The translations under genes were made by a program, and so were the position numbers. The notes under the pieces were generated by a model. The model was not told the origin of the DNA. It searched no databases and saw only the letters and a program-made list of their open reading frames with translations. This document shows positions 56,984 through 64,000 of a DNA stretch of 64,000 bases, in pieces (positions within the stretch are counted from its first letter, which is position 1; each line of letters starts with the position of its first letter). Location of the stretch: positions 1-64,000 of the forward strand of contig NZ_FOQO01000004.1 of the NCBI RefSeq assembly GCF_900113765.1. The letters are read 5' to 3'. The stretch is from Parapedobacter indicus (GTDB lineage: Bacteria; Bacteroidota; Bacteroidia; Sphingobacteriales; Sphingobacteriaceae).

Positions 56984-57064
56984 TCTGCCCGCAAATTTAG
57001 TAAGCTACGACGTTGAAATACAATGATGAGTAGCTATAAGCATATTAAGTCTACCAATTTTATA

Positions 57065-57072
57065 TATATTTG
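57065..57072 (+). promoter_or_regulatory. pst operon -7 element (TATATTTG)
   Basis: Exact TAnnTTTG match 22 bases before ATG 57095. It fixes the pstS start: the longer ORF start at 57023 lies upstream of this promoter. No TTTG -33 element at the right spacing, and I see no clear Pho box. Confidence 0.5.
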
Positions 57073-57094
57073 CGACTTCAAATGTGATAAAGAT

Positions 57095-58084
57095 ATGGCG
57101 ATTACCTTTCGGAAATGTTTGACAGCAACATCGCTTATCGTATTCGTATTGCTCAGTATTCTTCAAGAGGGATGCGCGCCCAAAAACTCGTCCGGTTGGG
57201 ATCCGGAGAAAGGACTTCAGGGTACGCTCAGTATATCGGGTGCTTTTGCGCTTTATCCGCTGGTGGTACTATGGAGCGAGCAGTTTAAAGAGGTTCATCC
57301 CCACGTACGATTCAATATTTCGGCAGGAGGCGCGGGCAAGGGTATTGCGGATGCCTTGACCGGCATGGTCGACATCGGTTTGGTATCTAGAGACATACAC
57401 CAACAGGAATTTGAGCGAGGCGGCTACGTTATCCACGTAGCACGAGATGCCGTTGTCGCGACGGTCAGTGATCAGAACCCGAACCTGGGCTTCCTTCTTC
57501 GGCAGGGGATCAAGCAAGATGAATTCAGGCGGCTTTTTGTAGACGGAACTGCCGCCGCGTGGAACCAGATCAATCCGTCGTTTTCCGATGACGATCTGCA
57601 TGTATATGTTCGTTCGGACGCTGCCGGTGCGGCGGAAACCTGGGCTGCTTACTTAGGCCACTCACAGGAAGACCTCAAAGGTATCGGGATTTTCGGCGAT
57701 CCCGGCATGGCCGAAGCCATTCAGAAAAATCCGCATGCCATCGGATTCAACAACATCAACTATGTATACAATATTAAAACCGGTAAGCAGTTCCCGGGGA
57801 TCCGTGTGGTGCCCATCGACCTGAATGGTGACGGCACACTCGCGCCCGATGAGAATTTCTACGATAACCTTGACAGCCTGACAAATGCGGTAGCAACGGG
57901 GAAGTACCCCTCTCCCCCTTCGCGCAACCTGTCCTTTCTGGTAAAGGGCAAGCCGAAAGATACAGTCCTTATTGAGTTTATTAAATTCGTACTTACCCAC
58001 GAATCCCAATCTCTGTTATTGGAAAACGGCTATATTCCCCTGAATGAAGAACAACTATTGGAAGAACGTACAAAACTGAACTAA
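57095..58084 (+). CDS. pstS: PstS-like phosphate-binding lipoprotein
   Basis: 329 aa from ATG 57095. Lipoprotein signal with lipobox QEGC (Cys27). Mature protein opens with LSISGAFALYPLVVLWSEQF, then SAGGAGKGIADALTGMVDIGLVSRDI and VRSDAAGAAETWAAYLG: the Bacteroidota 'SGAFALYP' PstS subfamily, whose anion-contact loops differ from the E. coli SGT type. An EF-hand-like loop, DLNGDGTLAPDE (D-x-N-x-DG-x5-E), lies near residue 250. Binds phosphate outside the inner membrane and delivers it to PstCA. First gene of pstSCAB. Confidence 0.9.
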   Translation: MAITFRKCLTATSLIVFVLLSILQEGCAPKNSSGWDPEKGLQGTLSISGAFALYPLVVLWSEQFKEVHPHVRFNISAGGAGKGIADALTGMVDIGLVSRDIHQQEFERGGYVIHVARDAVVATVSDQNPNLGFLLRQGIKQDEFRRLFVDGTAAAWNQINPSFSDDDLHVYVRSDAAGAAETWAAYLGHSQEDLKGIGIFGDPGMAEAIQKNPHAIGFNNINYVYNIKTGKQFPGIRVVPIDLNGDGTLAPDENFYDNLDSLTNAVATGKYPSPPSRNLSFLVKGKPKDTVLIEFIKFVLTHESQSLLLENGYIPLNEEQLLEERTKLN

Positions 58085-58085
58085 G

Positions 58086-58979
58086 TTGAATTTTAGGATA
58101 GTAAAAGACAAGCTGATAGCCAATGTGATGTTGATCCTCTCGATCTCATCGGTGTCGTTTGTTTTTCTTATTGGCATCGGTCTATACCTTCGGGCGGCAC
58201 CGTTATTCGAAGAGCACACCTTGCTTTCTCTATTCCGTGGGAGCAATTGGGCGCCCTCCAAAAACCAGTTTGGATTTTATCCATTTATTATGGGCACGCT
58301 ATCGGTTACACTGATTGCCATCGTGGTTGCGTTGCCCCTATGTCTTCTGACAGCCATCTACCTAACTGAATATGCCAAGCCGGGCATCCGGAAGGTCATG
58401 TTGCCTTTAATGAATATTCTTGCCGGCATTCCCCCTGTGATATACGGTGTATGGGGAATTTTCTTTGTGGTACCTATTGTACGTGAATACATTGCACCGC
58501 AGTTTATGGAGTATTCCAGCGGCTATACAGTACTTACGGGGGGCGTCGTGTTGGCGGTCATGATATTTCCCATCCTGGTGAGCATTGTTTCCGAAGTACT
58601 GAGCACCATTCCGAAGGAGTTGAAAGATGCTTCACTTTCTTTGGGAGCCACCAAGTGGGAGACCATCAAAAAAGTCGTCGTAAAGCGTGCCCGTCCCGGC
58701 ATTGTGGCGGCCATGGTGCTGGCTGTTTCCAGAGCCTTTGGTGAAACCATTGCCGTTTTGATGGTGTGCGGGAACGTACCGGTGGCACCCACGTCGGTAT
58801 TCGACGGGGGCTATCCGCTGCCCGCGCTGATTGCCAATAATTTCGGAGAGATGATGTCCATACCCTTGTATGACTCCGCGCTGATGTTTGCCGCCCTATT
58901 ACTGTTTGTCATCATTTTCCTTTTTAACCTGATTTCACGTATCATTCTCAATCGCATCGAACACAAATACAGCTCGTAA
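58086..58979 (+). CDS. pstC: Phosphate ABC transporter permease PstC
   Basis: 297 aa, six transmembrane helices, binding-protein-dependent permease. TTG start, one base after the pstS stop. Motifs: GIPPVIYGVWGIFFV, and the EAA loop ELKDASLSLGATKWETIKKVV followed by RARPGIVAAMVLAVSRAFGETIAVLMV. Pairs with PstA to form the channel. Confidence 0.96.
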   Translation: MNFRIVKDKLIANVMLILSISSVSFVFLIGIGLYLRAAPLFEEHTLLSLFRGSNWAPSKNQFGFYPFIMGTLSVTLIAIVVALPLCLLTAIYLTEYAKPGIRKVMLPLMNILAGIPPVIYGVWGIFFVVPIVREYIAPQFMEYSSGYTVLTGGVVLAVMIFPILVSIVSEVLSTIPKELKDASLSLGATKWETIKKVVVKRARPGIVAAMVLAVSRAFGETIAVLMVCGNVPVAPTSVFDGGYPLPALIANNFGEMMSIPLYDSALMFAALLLFVIIFLFNLISRIILNRIEHKYSS

Positions 58980-59827
58980 TGGGTATCAAAAGAAGAAAAG
59001 CCGAAGAAACGATTTTTAAGATACTGATGGTAATGGCGTGCCTAATTGTGGGGTCCAGTTTATTTTTGATTGTAGGTACCATTGTGGTCAAGGGTGTTCC
59101 ATATCTTACCTGGGACATGGTATCCAAGGCTCCGCAGGGAGGTTTTTACATCGGCAAAGAAGGCGGGGTACTTAATGCGATCATCGGATCTTTGTATGTA
59201 GCTGGGGGTGCTACGGTATTGGGATTACTCATTAGCATCCCTATTTCTATTTACCTCAATATTTACCTGAAAGGTGGAAGCCTATTGAGTAAATCGGCCA
59301 AACTGGCTTACGACGTACTCTTTGGCATCCCTTCCATCGTATACGGTGCCTTTGCATTCAGCATCATGATCTGGCTGGGCGTTCGAGCATCCCTGTTAGG
59401 TGGTGTCATCGCCGTCACGTTGCTCATTATTCCAATTTTGGTTCGCACGCTTGACGAGGTGATTGCTACGGTACCCAGGGAGTTAAAACATGCAGCTTTA
59501 TCGCTGGGTGCCACGCGGTGGGAAACGGCGCGGGTAATCCTACGACAGATTAAGCCGGGTATTTATACTGCCGTTTTATTATCGTTTGGCCGGGGGATTG
59601 GTGATGTCGCGGCCGTGCTGTTTACAGCCGGTTTCAGTGACAACATTCCGATATACATCGATGAGCCAGCAGCCACATTACCCTTAGCGATCTTTTTCCA
59701 ACTGAGCAGCCCGATACCCGAAGTACAGGGACGTGCATATGCATCGGCGCTTATACTCACCCTGATCATCCTGGTGATTGTTATCGTATCCCATATTCTG
59801 GCAACTAAACATAAACACAAACTATAA
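58979..59827 (+). CDS. pstA: Phosphate ABC transporter permease PstA
   Basis: 282 aa, six transmembrane helices. Start overlaps the pstC stop by one base (TAATG). Motifs GIPSIVYGAFAFSIM and EAA loop ELKHAALSLGATRWETARVIL, then IKPGIYTAVLLSFGRGIGDVAAVLF. Complements PstC. Confidence 0.96.
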   Translation: MGIKRRKAEETIFKILMVMACLIVGSSLFLIVGTIVVKGVPYLTWDMVSKAPQGGFYIGKEGGVLNAIIGSLYVAGGATVLGLLISIPISIYLNIYLKGGSLLSKSAKLAYDVLFGIPSIVYGAFAFSIMIWLGVRASLLGGVIAVTLLIIPILVRTLDEVIATVPRELKHAALSLGATRWETARVILRQIKPGIYTAVLLSFGRGIGDVAAVLFTAGFSDNIPIYIDEPAATLPLAIFFQLSSPIPEVQGRAYASALILTLIILVIVIVSHILATKHKHKL

Positions 59828-59829
59828 GC

Positions 59830-60591
59830 ATGACGCAGCATCCACTTATCCGTGTCAAGGACCTGAATGTGCATATTGACGGACACCATATCCTGAAGAA
59901 TATCAACATCAGTATTCCGGACAAGAGCGTGACCTCCATCATCGGCCCTTCGGGATGCGGCAAAACTACGCTACTGAAAACATTCAACCGACTGCTGGAT
60001 GATACGGCCAATGTAACGGTATCAGGCAGTGTGTTGGTAGACGATGAAGATATCTATGCGCCCGAGGCCGAGGTGACCCATATCCGCAAGAAGATGGGAT
60101 TGCTATCGCAGCGTCCCTATCCCCTTCCCATGTCAATTTATGACAACGTAGCTTATGGTCCGAGAATACACGGCACACGGGATAAAAGCACGCTGGATTC
60201 AATCGTCGAAAAACAATTGAAGGACACCGGTTTGTGGGATGAAGTGAAAGACCGCTTGCATGGTCCGGCGAACAGGCTTTCCATTGGACAGCAACAGCGG
60301 TTATGCCTGGCCCGCGGATTGGCGGTGAAGCCTGAAATTATCCTCGGCGACGAGTCAACATCGGCACTGGATCCAGTATCGACGCACACCATTGAAGATT
60401 TATTTGTTCGACTAAAAGCGCAGTACACCATTGTACTGGTTACTCACATTCTCCGGCAAGCACGCCGTATTTCGGATTACATCGTTTTTGTGTACATGGG
60501 CGAAATTGTCGAGTTCGGTCCTACGGATGAAGTGTTGCTCCATCCCAAAGAGGAGCTTACCCGTCAGTATGTGAAGGGGTTTATCAGTTGA
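59830..60591 (+). CDS. pstB: Phosphate ABC transporter ATPase PstB
   Basis: 253 aa. Walker A GPSGCGKTT, Q-loop LLSQRPYPLPMSIYDNVAYGP, signature LSIGQQQRLCLARGLA, Walker B/D-loop IILGDESTSALDP (Ser where Pro is usual), H-loop LVTHILRQARRISDY. Energises phosphate import. Two bases after pstA. No phoU gene follows, unlike many pst operons. Confidence 0.97.
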   Translation: MTQHPLIRVKDLNVHIDGHHILKNINISIPDKSVTSIIGPSGCGKTTLLKTFNRLLDDTANVTVSGSVLVDDEDIYAPEAEVTHIRKKMGLLSQRPYPLPMSIYDNVAYGPRIHGTRDKSTLDSIVEKQLKDTGLWDEVKDRLHGPANRLSIGQQQRLCLARGLAVKPEIILGDESTSALDPVSTHTIEDLFVRLKAQYTIVLVTHILRQARRISDYIVFVYMGEIVEFGPTDEVLLHPKEELTRQYVKGFIS

Positions 60592-60672: not shown

Positions 60673-61107
60673 TTATTGTGATTCCTGAAAAGTCAGGCAA
60701 AGTTTTTCGGCAATGGCCTCTACGGTAGTGCACTTTGTGAAAAGGATGTCAATATCCGAAAGCTGCGACATGGTTTGCAGCTGATGTGAATTTTCCCGGT
60801 CGATAAACAGCGCAATTTTTGCCTCCTCATGTTTTCTACGAAGTTGTTTGACGTACAACTTATCAGCCTCATTTAGCAGTAGGCGCTCTTCCAGTATTAT
60901 GAGGTCGTAAGTGTGTTGATCTTGGTTCAGTTCTTCTTCCAATTCGTGTTGGTCCAGAGCGTTGGCGGTTGATTCAGGGAGGTAATGCCGTACGATTTCA
61001 AGAAAGGCAAGCTGCTCAATTACAAAGTCGTCAATAATTAATACCCTAAGTCCCTTTCTGGTATGTGATATGGCAGCGACATATCGGGTGATCGTATCTG
61101 AAAACAT
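60673..61107 (-). CDS. Receiver-like protein with Glu at the phosphorylation site
   Basis: 144 aa single domain of the CheY-like fold. VLIIDDFVIEQLAF supplies the acidic pair D26/D27 and K125 sits in ILFTKCTT, but the phosphoacceptor position in DLIILEERL is Glu (E73) and the Thr/Ser switch follows an unusual IALFID. Glu can mimic a phosphorylated Asp, so this is probably a constitutively active-like pseudo-receiver (inference). No output domain. Same strand as, and 48 bases after, the clostripain-like gene; convergent with pstB. Confidence 0.75.
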   Translation of the reverse strand: MFSDTITRYVAAISHTRKGLRVLIIDDFVIEQLAFLEIVRHYLPESTANALDQHELEEELNQDQHTYDLIILEERLLLNEADKLYVKQLRRKHEEAKIALFIDRENSHQLQTMSQLSDIDILFTKCTTVEAIAEKLCLTFQESQ

Positions 61108-61155
61108 GATCTGTTGTTCTTTTTAGTGCTTGATGTTTCAATTTTATTATCATTT

Positions 61156-62349
61156 TCATGGGTTATGACGTGTTTGTTTACACCAGGTAAGTTCGTTGTA
61201 TCGCTCGTTGAGCTTAGGGAACCGTTCCTGCAGAATATAGGTGGTGATGCCGCTGTGGTTGCTAATCTGAAAACCCAGCTGGCCGGGGATGAAAAAAGGC
61301 GTCGCGGCCTTATAGACTACGATCGTATTAAGCAATTCTTTCAATTTCGCTCTTCCCTCATCGTTCGTTTTCCGGCCGTAATAATCGGAAAAATCAAAAA
61401 ACAAGCGATGGTTTCGGTATCGATCGAAGTGCTGAATTTCGGGCAGGTTATCCTCTGGTACATGCTCGGTTGCGTATTGATTAGCCCAGTTTGCCAGCAG
61501 GGAGAGGCCTGATGTGCTGACCACGGTAACGGTGGCCGAGCGATAGTCTCCGGACTGTGCATTCCAAAAGTCAAAATAAGCCTTAGCAAATCCAGCGAGG
61601 TCGGGTTGTGGCTGATATAGCAGCGATAGTGCCTCCGAGTAGACCGGCAGGAAGCCGGGTGACACGATTTCCGCGGAGGATGAGAGGATGTAATCGGTTT
61701 TATCTTTGAGTTCATAGAGCACCTCAATGCCGGCCATGAAGCAGGCTTCAAAGGCGATAAAATCAAAAAAATGGTCGGGAATTACGGCAGCAAACTCGCT
61801 AAGGCTTAGTTCGTCTGAACCATCCATAGCGATGGTATAGGTTCGAATGGGAGTGATTCCCATTTGCCGGACAGTCGATTCGGGCCGAAGAAGGGCACCT
61901 CTCGGCAGCCAGCCTGAAGCATGGGAAAATAGGATCAGTCCGTAGGAATCTGCAGGAAATAAGCTTTGCACGTCGCCCAATACCTGCTGGAACGTTTCGC
62001 CGGTTGCGCTATTTTGCTCGGAATAGGTTTTGGTGGTACGGATCTGATTTTCTCCGTTTTCGTCGGTATAGATCTCCAGCAACTCTGGCGATTCATTGCG
62101 GGTATCCTTGTAGATCACGAGGTGATCGTCGCCACCGGGAAAACCGACGCGTAAGGCTTCGATTTTGTCGTCAGATTCTGAGTATAGGCTGTTATCGGCT
62201 CCCAAATAGTATACGATGGTGCGGTTTGGTGGGGCAGGTTCGGGTTTGATGGGATTTTCTTTGCTGCAAGCCAATACGGAAAGCAACGACCAAATCATCA
62301 AAGTAAGTTTTAATGCCGCCGTAGTTCTATTTGGGAGAAGATTGAACAT
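61156..62349 (-). CDS. Clostripain-family (C11) cysteine protease, lipoprotein
   Basis: 397 aa. Lipoprotein signal with lipobox VLAC (Cys28). Catalytic His in LILFSHASGWLP (about 143) and Cys in DFIAFEACFMAGIEVLYEL (about 200), the C11/caspase-like dyad; core strands TIVYYLGADNSLYSESDDKIEAL and HLVIYKDTRNE fit clostripain. Known family members prefer cleavage after Arg. Membrane-anchored, probably facing the periplasm or cell surface. Ten bases downstream of a fimbrial-type gene, so in the same operon. Confidence 0.9.
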   Translation of the reverse strand: MFNLLPNRTTAALKLTLMIWSLLSVLACSKENPIKPEPAPPNRTIVYYLGADNSLYSESDDKIEALRVGFPGGDDHLVIYKDTRNESPELLEIYTDENGENQIRTTKTYSEQNSATGETFQQVLGDVQSLFPADSYGLILFSHASGWLPRGALLRPESTVRQMGITPIRTYTIAMDGSDELSLSEFAAVIPDHFFDFIAFEACFMAGIEVLYELKDKTDYILSSSAEIVSPGFLPVYSEALSLLYQPQPDLAGFAKAYFDFWNAQSGDYRSATVTVVSTSGLSLLANWANQYATEHVPEDNLPEIQHFDRYRNHRLFFDFSDYYGRKTNDEGRAKLKELLNTIVVYKAATPFFIPGQLGFQISNHSGITTYILQERFPKLNERYNELTWCKQTRHNP

Positions 62350-62359
62350 GATTAGCTAT

Positions 62360-63571
62360 CTAATGAGTTTCATCAATCGCGGTAATAGTGTAATTTATTC
62401 CTCTGCCACCAGTAGAGACGATTTCTGTTCGCCTTTGGGATGGGGGTTTGATTAAGCGGCGTTCAAAAAAATAGTTTGGTCGTGTCCCACTCCCTCCCCA
62501 GTATAAAAACAAATTCGGTAATGATGGCTGTTCAAATGCATCATCTTCATGGTCCTCTGGTGATCCTGAATTATCTGCGCCCGTAATATTTATAACATAA
62601 TGATGGTTGCGAAGTAAAGGTATTAAATTATTAGCCGCATCCTTAAAATCTATACGATAGAAACATGGCGTAGATACATCTGCATTATAATAGCCCCCTA
62701 TTACTAATGCTGTGGCTGTAGGATCTGGATTTGCGGTTCCTGCAGTTGCTTCAAAAAGATAAATTTCTCTTTCTAATTTATTCCCGCTTACTTCATATTT
62801 GAGCGTACTGTTATTAGGTAGACCTAAACTTACAGGCAGACTCGGCTCATTATTTTCAAACTTATTCTTGTCTGGCATAATCAGTCCACTGCTTTTACTA
62901 TTATAAACATGTACCTCTGTAAGCGTAAAAATTCCGATCAATTGATCGGCTACTACATCTACACGTACAATACTACGCAATAAATCGATTTCTTCCGTGT
63001 GGATCATTGGAACATTCATGCCTGAAATAAGATCTGTCTCACCCCACATGGGCAGTGGAGTAAAAGGTCCTCCTTCTATTTTGGCCTGCCATTTATCGGA
63101 ATGCTCATAGATTAGATGCTTCTGCAGGCTTTCTTTAGTTTCTCCTAGATTAATACCATAAGTATCCAATTGCTGACGTGCATTAACCAGGATAACGAGC
63201 CTATATTCATTGCCTGTGTCTTCATCTCGGCGTAAGCTTGCTGTCAACTCTGCTTTGTCATTGTTAGGCGGTGGTAAAGGAACTACAATACCTGTGGCAC
63301 GATAACTAAATCGTTCTTTACCATCTATATCTTTTTTAAATACTAATACGTCCACTTCCTCTATCAAATTCTCATCTACTTCATTAATAGTATACGTTTT
63401 TAGCCCACTTGGAAGCGTGGGTAATTTCAACGAAAGGGTTACAGACACTTCTTCCTTCTTAGGAACAATATCTTCATCATCCGATTTTTGGCAGGAGCCA
63501 AAGCAAATGAACATCGCTAGCATACACACCAAAAATGGTTTTAGGTTAACGTACTTGCTATTACATTTCAT
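62360..63571 (-). CDS. FimA/Mfa-like type V fimbrial lipoprotein
   Basis: 403 aa. Lipoprotein signal with lipobox FGSC (Cys27). Fimbrillin-like pattern: N-terminal beta domain (VTLSLKLPTLPSGLKTYTINEVDENLIEEVDVLVF), LVILVNARQQL, the family motif PLPMWGETD, then LRSIVRVDVVADQ, and the C-terminal HHYVINITG segment. It belongs to the Mfa/Fim superfamily, whose members are exported as lipoproteins and processed at the surface to polymerise; whether this is shaft or accessory subunit is unclear. AT-richer than the neighbouring regions. 11 bases after the upstream gene. Confidence 0.82.
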   Translation of the reverse strand: MKCNSKYVNLKPFLVCMLAMFICFGSCQKSDDEDIVPKKEEVSVTLSLKLPTLPSGLKTYTINEVDENLIEEVDVLVFKKDIDGKERFSYRATGIVVPLPPPNNDKAELTASLRRDEDTGNEYRLVILVNARQQLDTYGINLGETKESLQKHLIYEHSDKWQAKIEGGPFTPLPMWGETDLISGMNVPMIHTEEIDLLRSIVRVDVVADQLIGIFTLTEVHVYNSKSSGLIMPDKNKFENNEPSLPVSLGLPNNSTLKYEVSGNKLEREIYLFEATAGTANPDPTATALVIGGYYNADVSTPCFYRIDFKDAANNLIPLLRNHHYVINITGADNSGSPEDHEDDAFEQPSLPNLFLYWGGSGTRPNYFFERRLIKPPSQRRTEIVSTGGRGINYTITAIDETH

Positions 63572-63582
63572 CGTGGTAGAAG

Positions 63583-64000
63583 TTACTGTAATTCGTAGTC
63601 ATTCTCGGTTACCAACCATTCATTGATATATATCCTGATTTTCAGGTCAACAGTGTAAAGAAATCCGATATCAAAACTATTGGCGCATTCTAAATTTAAT
63701 CCGGGCACGCGGTTAAGCAATTCGTAGAGGTTTTCATCCACCAGCTTATAACCTGTCTCGGGATTAATAACCTGTAATCTAGTAAAAGAGCCATCTTGTT
63801 TTAACGGCCAGTTAACCAGCGATCTTCCAAACAAAAATTTATCTTCGTTTTCTTCCAGTGGCACGTAAATTAACGGGTTTCCTGTTAAAAAAAATTGTTG
63901 ATCATTAAATGTATAATATCCAGCGTTACCTGCCAAGGCTACTTGGTATAACTCGCTTCCGTCTAAACCGTCCACAGAAACGTTCAATACCTTCGTGTGT
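63583..64000 (-). CDS. FimB/Mfa2-like fimbrial protein, 5' part outside the window
   Basis: Partial: the frame stays open through base 64000, so the true start is off the window; 139 codons are visible. The C-terminal part ELLNRVPGLNLECANSF then VDLKIRIYINEWLVTENDYEL has the 'strand - IYINEWLV' ending typical of FimB/Mfa2-type anchor or accessory subunits. Followed after 11 bases by the fimbrillin-like gene, so the same operon. Confidence 0.65.
   Translation of the reverse strand, partial: HTKVLNVSVDGLDGSELYQVALAGNAGYYTFNDQQFFLTGNPLIYVPLEENEDKFLFGRSLVNWPLKQDGSFTRLQVINPETGYKLVDENLYELLNRVPGLNLECANSFDIGFLYTVDLKIRIYINEWLVTENDYELQ

Follow-up and report, generated by a model that had tools for sequence, protein, structure and literature searches.

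A type V pilus operon at the edge of the window

The stretch of DNA analyzed here, referred to as the window, comprises 64,000 nucleotides of Parapedobacter indicus and is the start of a 431-kb contig (NZ_FOQO01000004.1) in a genome of 6.16 Mb. At its far end, four open reading frames (ORFs) on the minus strand encode, in order of rising coordinate, a receiver-like protein, a C11 (clostripain-family) lipoprotein protease, a fimbrillin-like lipoprotein, and part of an Mfa2/FimB-type pilus anchor, with gaps of 48, 10, and 11 bases between them. An earlier interpretation made from the letters alone (the sequence-only reading) had listed the same four genes and gaps, which the ORF coordinates confirmed, and had proposed that the protease matures fimbrillin by cutting after Arg in a species without gingipains. 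The analysis described below placed the protease in a C11 clade with an altered residue in the S1 specificity pocket; genes of this clade recur in pilus operons, and the pilins encoded beside them mostly carry Tyr at the predicted maturation site.

The contig was inspected past base 64000. The anchor gene, in agreement with its earlier description as FimB/Mfa2-like, matches Pfam Mfa2 (E value of 2.6e-7 for the part in the window and 104 bits, with a cut-off of 21, when completed) and ends at base 64503, outside the window. Beyond it were found genes for an Mfa1-family shaft and a DUF3575 barrel protein, resulting in the operon order DUF3575 barrel, Mfa1-family shaft, Mfa2 anchor, second pilin, C11 lipoprotein protease, and receiver-like protein. 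Shaft and anchor lie side by side, and both have lipoboxes in their sequences. Judged from its genes, a type V (Mfa-type) pilus operon is present here in full, and the window edge cuts through it. The 403-residue lipoprotein between anchor and protease had been called FimA/Mfa-like. It does match fimbrillins, but all scores are weak and under cut-off (Pfam Fimbrillin_C, E = 0.009; NCBIfam FimD_tip_adhes, E = 4e-12; NCBIfam fim_Mfa1_fam, E = 4e-8), and we regard it as a probable fimbrillin, the second pilin of the operon.

A whole-genome profile search found one C11 and one strong Mfa2 in P. indicus. Among nine Parapedobacter genomes, a strong Mfa2 was present in three and a C11 in exactly those three, with the two genes adjacent. 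Both congeners (G004 and G006) have the order DUF3575, Mfa1, Mfa2, C11, and receiver-like protein, and the second fimbrillin is absent. The second pilin thus comes and goes between Mfa2 and C11 while the C11 stays, which makes the protease the more constant member. Because the gene order is kept in two other Parapedobacter species, the cluster is more than chance. C25 (gingipain-family) proteases were not detected in P. indicus or the two C11-bearing congeners (G000, G004, and G006), while the same search was positive in control Bacteroidales genomes.

The protease belongs to a C11 clade with Glu in place of the S1 Asp

By profile, fold, and catalytic dyad, the window protease is a member of peptidase family C11, as had been read from the sequence. 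Its match to Peptidase_C11 is strong, and the catalytic His143 and Cys203 are in place; the dyad is kept in all 63 aligned C11s. The AlphaFold model (mean predicted local distance difference test [pLDDT] score, 88) gave 6mzo as the best Foldseek match (E = 9e-34; template modeling scores, 0.75/0.86). A Pfam search, which sampled C11s without bias for Glu, supplied 63 domains for a tree, in which the three Parapedobacter C11s and four Bacteroidales C11s formed one clade with support of 100/100, and two of these four (G229 and G331) also sit in Mfa operons. Two positions ahead of the catalytic Cys, all clade members (7/7) have Glu, while the other C11s have Asp (55/56) or His (1/56); the clade is referred to as Glu-type. 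C11 types in the locus comparisons below were taken from the alignment of the 63 C11s. The patterns of the collection scan contained FE[AT]C, with Glu built in, and the Glu statistic is therefore from the Pfam sample only.

In PmC11, Asp177 is the primary S1 residue for basic substrates and, according to its authors, is conserved throughout the family; Asp207 also lines the S1 pocket, and the enzyme prefers Arg/Lys and cleaves itself at Lys147 (PMC4850288). The position of Asp207 aligns with Pro231 in the window protease, in which Glu201 replaces the primary S1 Asp. This is a feature of specificity, and the placement in family C11 stands. The activation loop of the Parapedobacter C11s reads IRTYT; in an ungapped alignment, its Tyr falls at Lys147 of PmC11, and Arg is two residues earlier.

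Glu-type C11 genes are linked to pilus genes

A collection scan with the Glu-type clade returned 75 loci in Pedobacter, Daejeonella, Dysgonomonas, Parabacteroides, Tannerella, Bacteroides, Alistipes, and others. Fimbrial markers were near 37 of the 56 Glu-type C11 loci with usable flanks, compared with 1 of 47 loci of other C11 types. In the Pfam-found sample, Mfa2 was nearby in 5/7 Glu-type loci and in 0/47 other C11 loci. A C11 gene is a real and recurrent partner of pilus operons within the Glu-type clade. The search for C11 genes beside FimA/Mfa genes, which had been suggested earlier, therefore gave a positive answer for this clade and a negative one for the other types; general linkage of C11 to fimbrial genes was ruled out by the 46/47 loci of other types without a fimbrial marker. 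The sole marker outside the Glu-type clade is at L075:9081-9653, where an Asp-type C11 (G303) is divergent beside DUF3575/DUF3868 genes. The Glu-type C11s of Parabacteroides and termite-gut Tannerella (L114, L116, L117, L158, and L162) lie among housekeeping genes, and this part of the clade is not operon-linked.

Pilins at Glu-type C11 loci carry a TY motif

In Porphyromonas gingivalis, cleavage of pilin precursors takes place after Arg43-54 of the beta1-beta2 loop, where related pilin structures expose Arg or Lys (PMC4789730). For comparison, 76 lipoprotein ORFs at Glu-type C11 loci were picked without the use of the TY motif (set A), with 65 from Mfa2 loci as the control, and their N-terminal segments were examined. 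T-Y-[AGST] was present in 48/76 at the Glu-type loci (shuffle mean, 6; maximum, 14) and in 1/65 at the control loci (Fisher p = 1e-16 for the TY contrast, relatedness ignored), whereas T-R-[AGST] was present in 6/76 and 24/65, respectively. Because some lipoproteins of set A are not pilins, the proportion among pilins would be at least 48/76. The motif was seen in several pilin families (fim_Mfa1_fam shaft, tip-type, and DUF6562-type).

Neither pilin of the window operon has Arg at the canonical loop position, which reads QTYA in the shaft and KTYT in the second pilin; the congener shafts have RTYA. Across 13 aligned tip-type pilins from loci of this kind, with a mean column identity of 25%, Tyr60 is kept in 13/13 and Thr59 in 12/13, and the residue before TY varies (K, H, S, K, N, K, K, K, S, K, S, N, and Q). 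The AlphaFold model of the second pilin placed T59-Y60 between predicted strands 41-49 and 73-80; because the model is moderate (mean pLDDT, 63), the one feature taken from it was that the loop lies between two strands. The beta1-beta2 loop is present, but its conserved residue is Tyr and not the type V norm of Arg/Lys. This concerns the Arg site only, and the membership of shaft and anchor stands.

Protease type and pilin site are associated

Within the tip-pilin family, Tyr was found in 27/32 pilins beside a Glu-type C11 (with two L129 rows assigned by hand to this adjacent class), in 8/40 other pilins of genomes having a Glu-type C11, and in 2/16 pilins of genomes without one, both with Arg nearby. 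The genome of Bacteroides sp. 224 encodes two C11s, one of each type (Asp and Glu); the locus linked to the Glu-type C11 carries TYA, and at the other Mfa2 loci that were fetched, nearly all sites are Arg sites. On a tip-pilin tree built leaving the motif columns out, the Tyr/non-Tyr state changes 16 times, and the label for pilins that are adjacent and have Tyr requires a minimum of 7 changes on starred branches. By these sequence comparisons, protease type and pilin site are strongly associated; repeated coevolution is not proven by them.

Fimbrial genes without an adjacent C11, which the sequence-only reading had named as evidence against a dedicated protease, do occur at many Bacteroidales loci, whose pilins mostly carry Arg/Lys. 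Arg/Lys pilins at C11-less loci are compatible with two parallel maturation routes.

Other genes at the locus

Features of the operon and its surroundings are collected in Table 1. The 144-residue protein had been called a pseudo-receiver. It has Glu73 (LIILEE) where the phospho-acceptor Asp is expected, and there is a weak PleD match, but no Pfam or PDB match was obtained, and comparing its profile with those of two receiver domains yielded no match. The identity is plausible but weakly supported by the sequence. Of the loci compared, only the three Parapedobacter pilus loci encode this protein, at 60-62% identity. At several Bacteroidales and Pedobacter C11s, a DUF5106/thioredoxin-type lipoprotein adjoins the protease gene, and the Parapedobacter loci have the receiver-like protein instead. 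Such a thioredoxin-like lipoprotein might be a redox partner that keeps the catalytic Cys of the C11 reduced. On the plus strand, window positions 57023-60591 hold a phosphate ATP-binding cassette (ABC) transporter set, named from sequence (PstS-like, two permeases, and PstB-like ATPase), that converges on the pilus operon; both congeners have the same phosphate-transporter neighbors at the pilus locus.

TABLE 1 Coordinates of the pilus operon, its predicted sites, and related features
Feature	Position	Strand	Basis
Receiver-like protein, 144 aa (amino acids)	60673..61107	-	Weak NCBIfam PleD match, E 3e-4
C11 (clostripain-family) protease, 397 aa, lipoprotein signal Cys28	61156..62349	-	Pfam PF03415, E 2.7e-24
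Glu201-Ala-Cys203, Glu in place of S1 Asp (PmC11 Asp177)	61741..61749	-	C11 alignment
Activation-loop segment I168-R-T-Y-T-I-A-M-D176, aligned with the PmC11 Lys147/Ala148 self-cleavage site	61822..61848	-	Alignments
Second fimbrillin lipoprotein (probable), tip-type pilin family, 403 aa	62360..63571	-	Weak family scores
K58-T59-Y60-T61, beta1-beta2 loop of second fimbrillin, predicted maturation site TY/T	63389..63400	-	Alignment and predicted strands
Mfa2/FimB-type anchor, 3' part, runs off window end	63583..64000	-	Pfam PF08842 (Mfa2)
Mfa1-family shaft lipoprotein	Contig 64596-66071, beyond window		NCBIfam fim_Mfa1_fam (NF038041), 260 bits, cut-off 130
DUF3575 barrel protein	Contig 66135-66938, beyond window		PF12099, E 3e-45
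Small helix-turn-helix (HTH)-like gene, divergent, upstream of operon	Contig 67337-67717		HTH Pfam scores under cut-off
Thioredoxin-like lipoproteins next to Glu-type C11	L055:9806-10801, L074:7195-8043, L101:11136-12089		DUF5106 in two of three

A working model for pilin maturation

We favor, with moderate confidence, a model in which the protease is an operon-encoded, dedicated pilin maturase with an altered preference for the residue before the cut (P1), namely Tyr and possibly also Arg/Lys; the cleavage itself is predicted. We infer that the C11 lipoprotein would reach the outer surface and become activated through cleavage of its own loop. It would then cleave the loop that connects beta strands 1 and 2 of the pilin prepeptides, after Tyr (TY/A) and perhaps still after Arg/Lys, and removal of the N-terminal strand would allow the subunits to polymerize by strand exchange. 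Of the earlier proposal, a dedicated protease was retained, as the C11 is a regular partner of pilus operons (3/3 in the genus), and the cut after Arg was not, given Glu at S1 and Tyr at the pilin loop; strict Arg specificity was dropped as the leading reading for these two reasons. A more far-reaching version, which we hold only tentatively, is that Glu-type C11s are Tyr-P1-specific pilin maturases, that protease and pilins moved together from an Arg to a Tyr code, and that one cell could mature two type V pilus sets via separate proteases.

Several observations weigh against the maturase model. No fimbrial marker was found at 19 Glu-type loci with at least 5 kb of upstream sequence, and TY-type loci that lack an adjacent C11 are present in Parabacteroides and B. 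reticulotermitis, with a Glu-type gene elsewhere in the genome. Three pilins beside Glu-type C11s retain Arg/Lys, as do pilins at other loci of Dysgonomonas genomes that have Glu-type C11s only. Most Glu-type C11s have Arg (R/S) at the presumed self-activation position, so either Arg is accepted or another protease activates them. The independent pilin-pair test on the starred branches went in the expected direction (3.4 versus 0.5) and was too small for significance, and searches of solved structures with pilin alignments returned no usable pilin template and no TY-type pilin structure. From the Arg in activation loops, the Dysgonomonas pilins, and the unlinked loci it follows that the enzyme need not be purely Tyr-specific; acceptance of both Tyr and Arg/Lys, or processing of the Arg pilins by a second protease, would also be compatible with the data. 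A rule that Glu-type C11s go with TY pilins only was ruled out by the Arg/Lys pilins in genomes with only Glu-type C11s.

The same observations lend themselves to other explanations. A dedicated maturase might still cut after Arg/Lys, with Tyr as a neighboring recognition or structural residue and the cut at the basic residue that precedes TY in some pilins. The Arg of the activation loops, the K or R before TY in several pilins (as in KTYT and the congener RTYA), and the known preference of PmC11 (PMC4850288) speak for such an enzyme, but we consider it unlikely: the S1 Asp is lost across the whole clade, most such pilins have no Arg in the loop, and the case for this cut position is weakened by the variability of the residue before TY among the 13 related pilins and by the Q of the P. 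indicus shaft. Alternatively, the C11 could clip other surface targets (anchor, tip domain, or released lipoproteins) while TY pilins are matured by another protease or polymerize untrimmed. Fragipain has many surface substrates (PMC12632263), and both the Glu-type C11s away from fimbrial genes and the TY loci without an adjacent C11 would be accounted for; the strong linkage, the site association, and the location of the only Parapedobacter C11 in a pilus operon nevertheless make this explanation rather improbable. Finally, TY could be an inherited trait of one pilin lineage that travels with Glu-type C11s and has no functional match to them. The Glu change occurred in one C11 clade and hence as a single event, and the pair test was not significant, but TY is present in several pilin families, the state changes on the tip-pilin tree are numerous, and one genome holds both Arg and Tyr loci, so that such hitchhiking is very unlikely.

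Comparison with known systems

The type V pilus-maturing protease outside Porphyromonas has so far been largely a review statement; here, a protease is physically tied to its pilins across two orders, with one specificity-pocket substitution and a cutting motif predicted from sequence. If the maturase model is true, protease specificity could keep pilus systems in one cell apart, C11 enzymes would not all be Arg/Lys proteases, and the maturation sites of many unstudied pilins could become predictable.

Fragipain and doripain are general, Arg-type enzymes with an S1 Asp. Like these C11s of Bacteroides and Phocaeicola, which are Asp-type, the window protease is a C11 with a lipoprotein signal and is predicted to be on the surface; its gene, unlike theirs, lies within a pilus operon, its clade is a separate one, and its S1 residue is Glu. 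A C11 as pilin protease is not new, as cleavage of type V pilins by the surface clostripain during assembly is stated in a 2025 review (PMC12632263). What appears new is the operon-borne Glu-type clade and the matching Arg-to-Tyr change of the site; in the open-access literature, to which the search was confined, neither a C11 subfamily encoded in operons and having this S1 change nor a TY site was found to be described.

The window protease shares its fold and catalytic dyad with PmC11 of Parabacteroides merdae (3UWS/4YEC) and with the zymogen C11 6mzo of P. distasonis. It differs from PmC11, with its Asp177/Asp207 pair and Lys147 self-cleavage (PMC4850288), in having Glu201, Pro231, and an R-T-Y-T loop. 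The predicted pilus resembles the FimA/Mfa1 fimbriae of P. gingivalis, with shaft, Mfa2-type anchor, and tip-type pilins as lipoproteins. In P. gingivalis, a clan CD cysteine protease trims the lipoprotein pilin precursors within their beta1-beta2 loop (PMC4789730). There, C25 gingipains cut after Arg43-54, whereas in Parapedobacter C25 was undetected, a C11 lies inside the operon, and the predicted site is T-Y-[AT].

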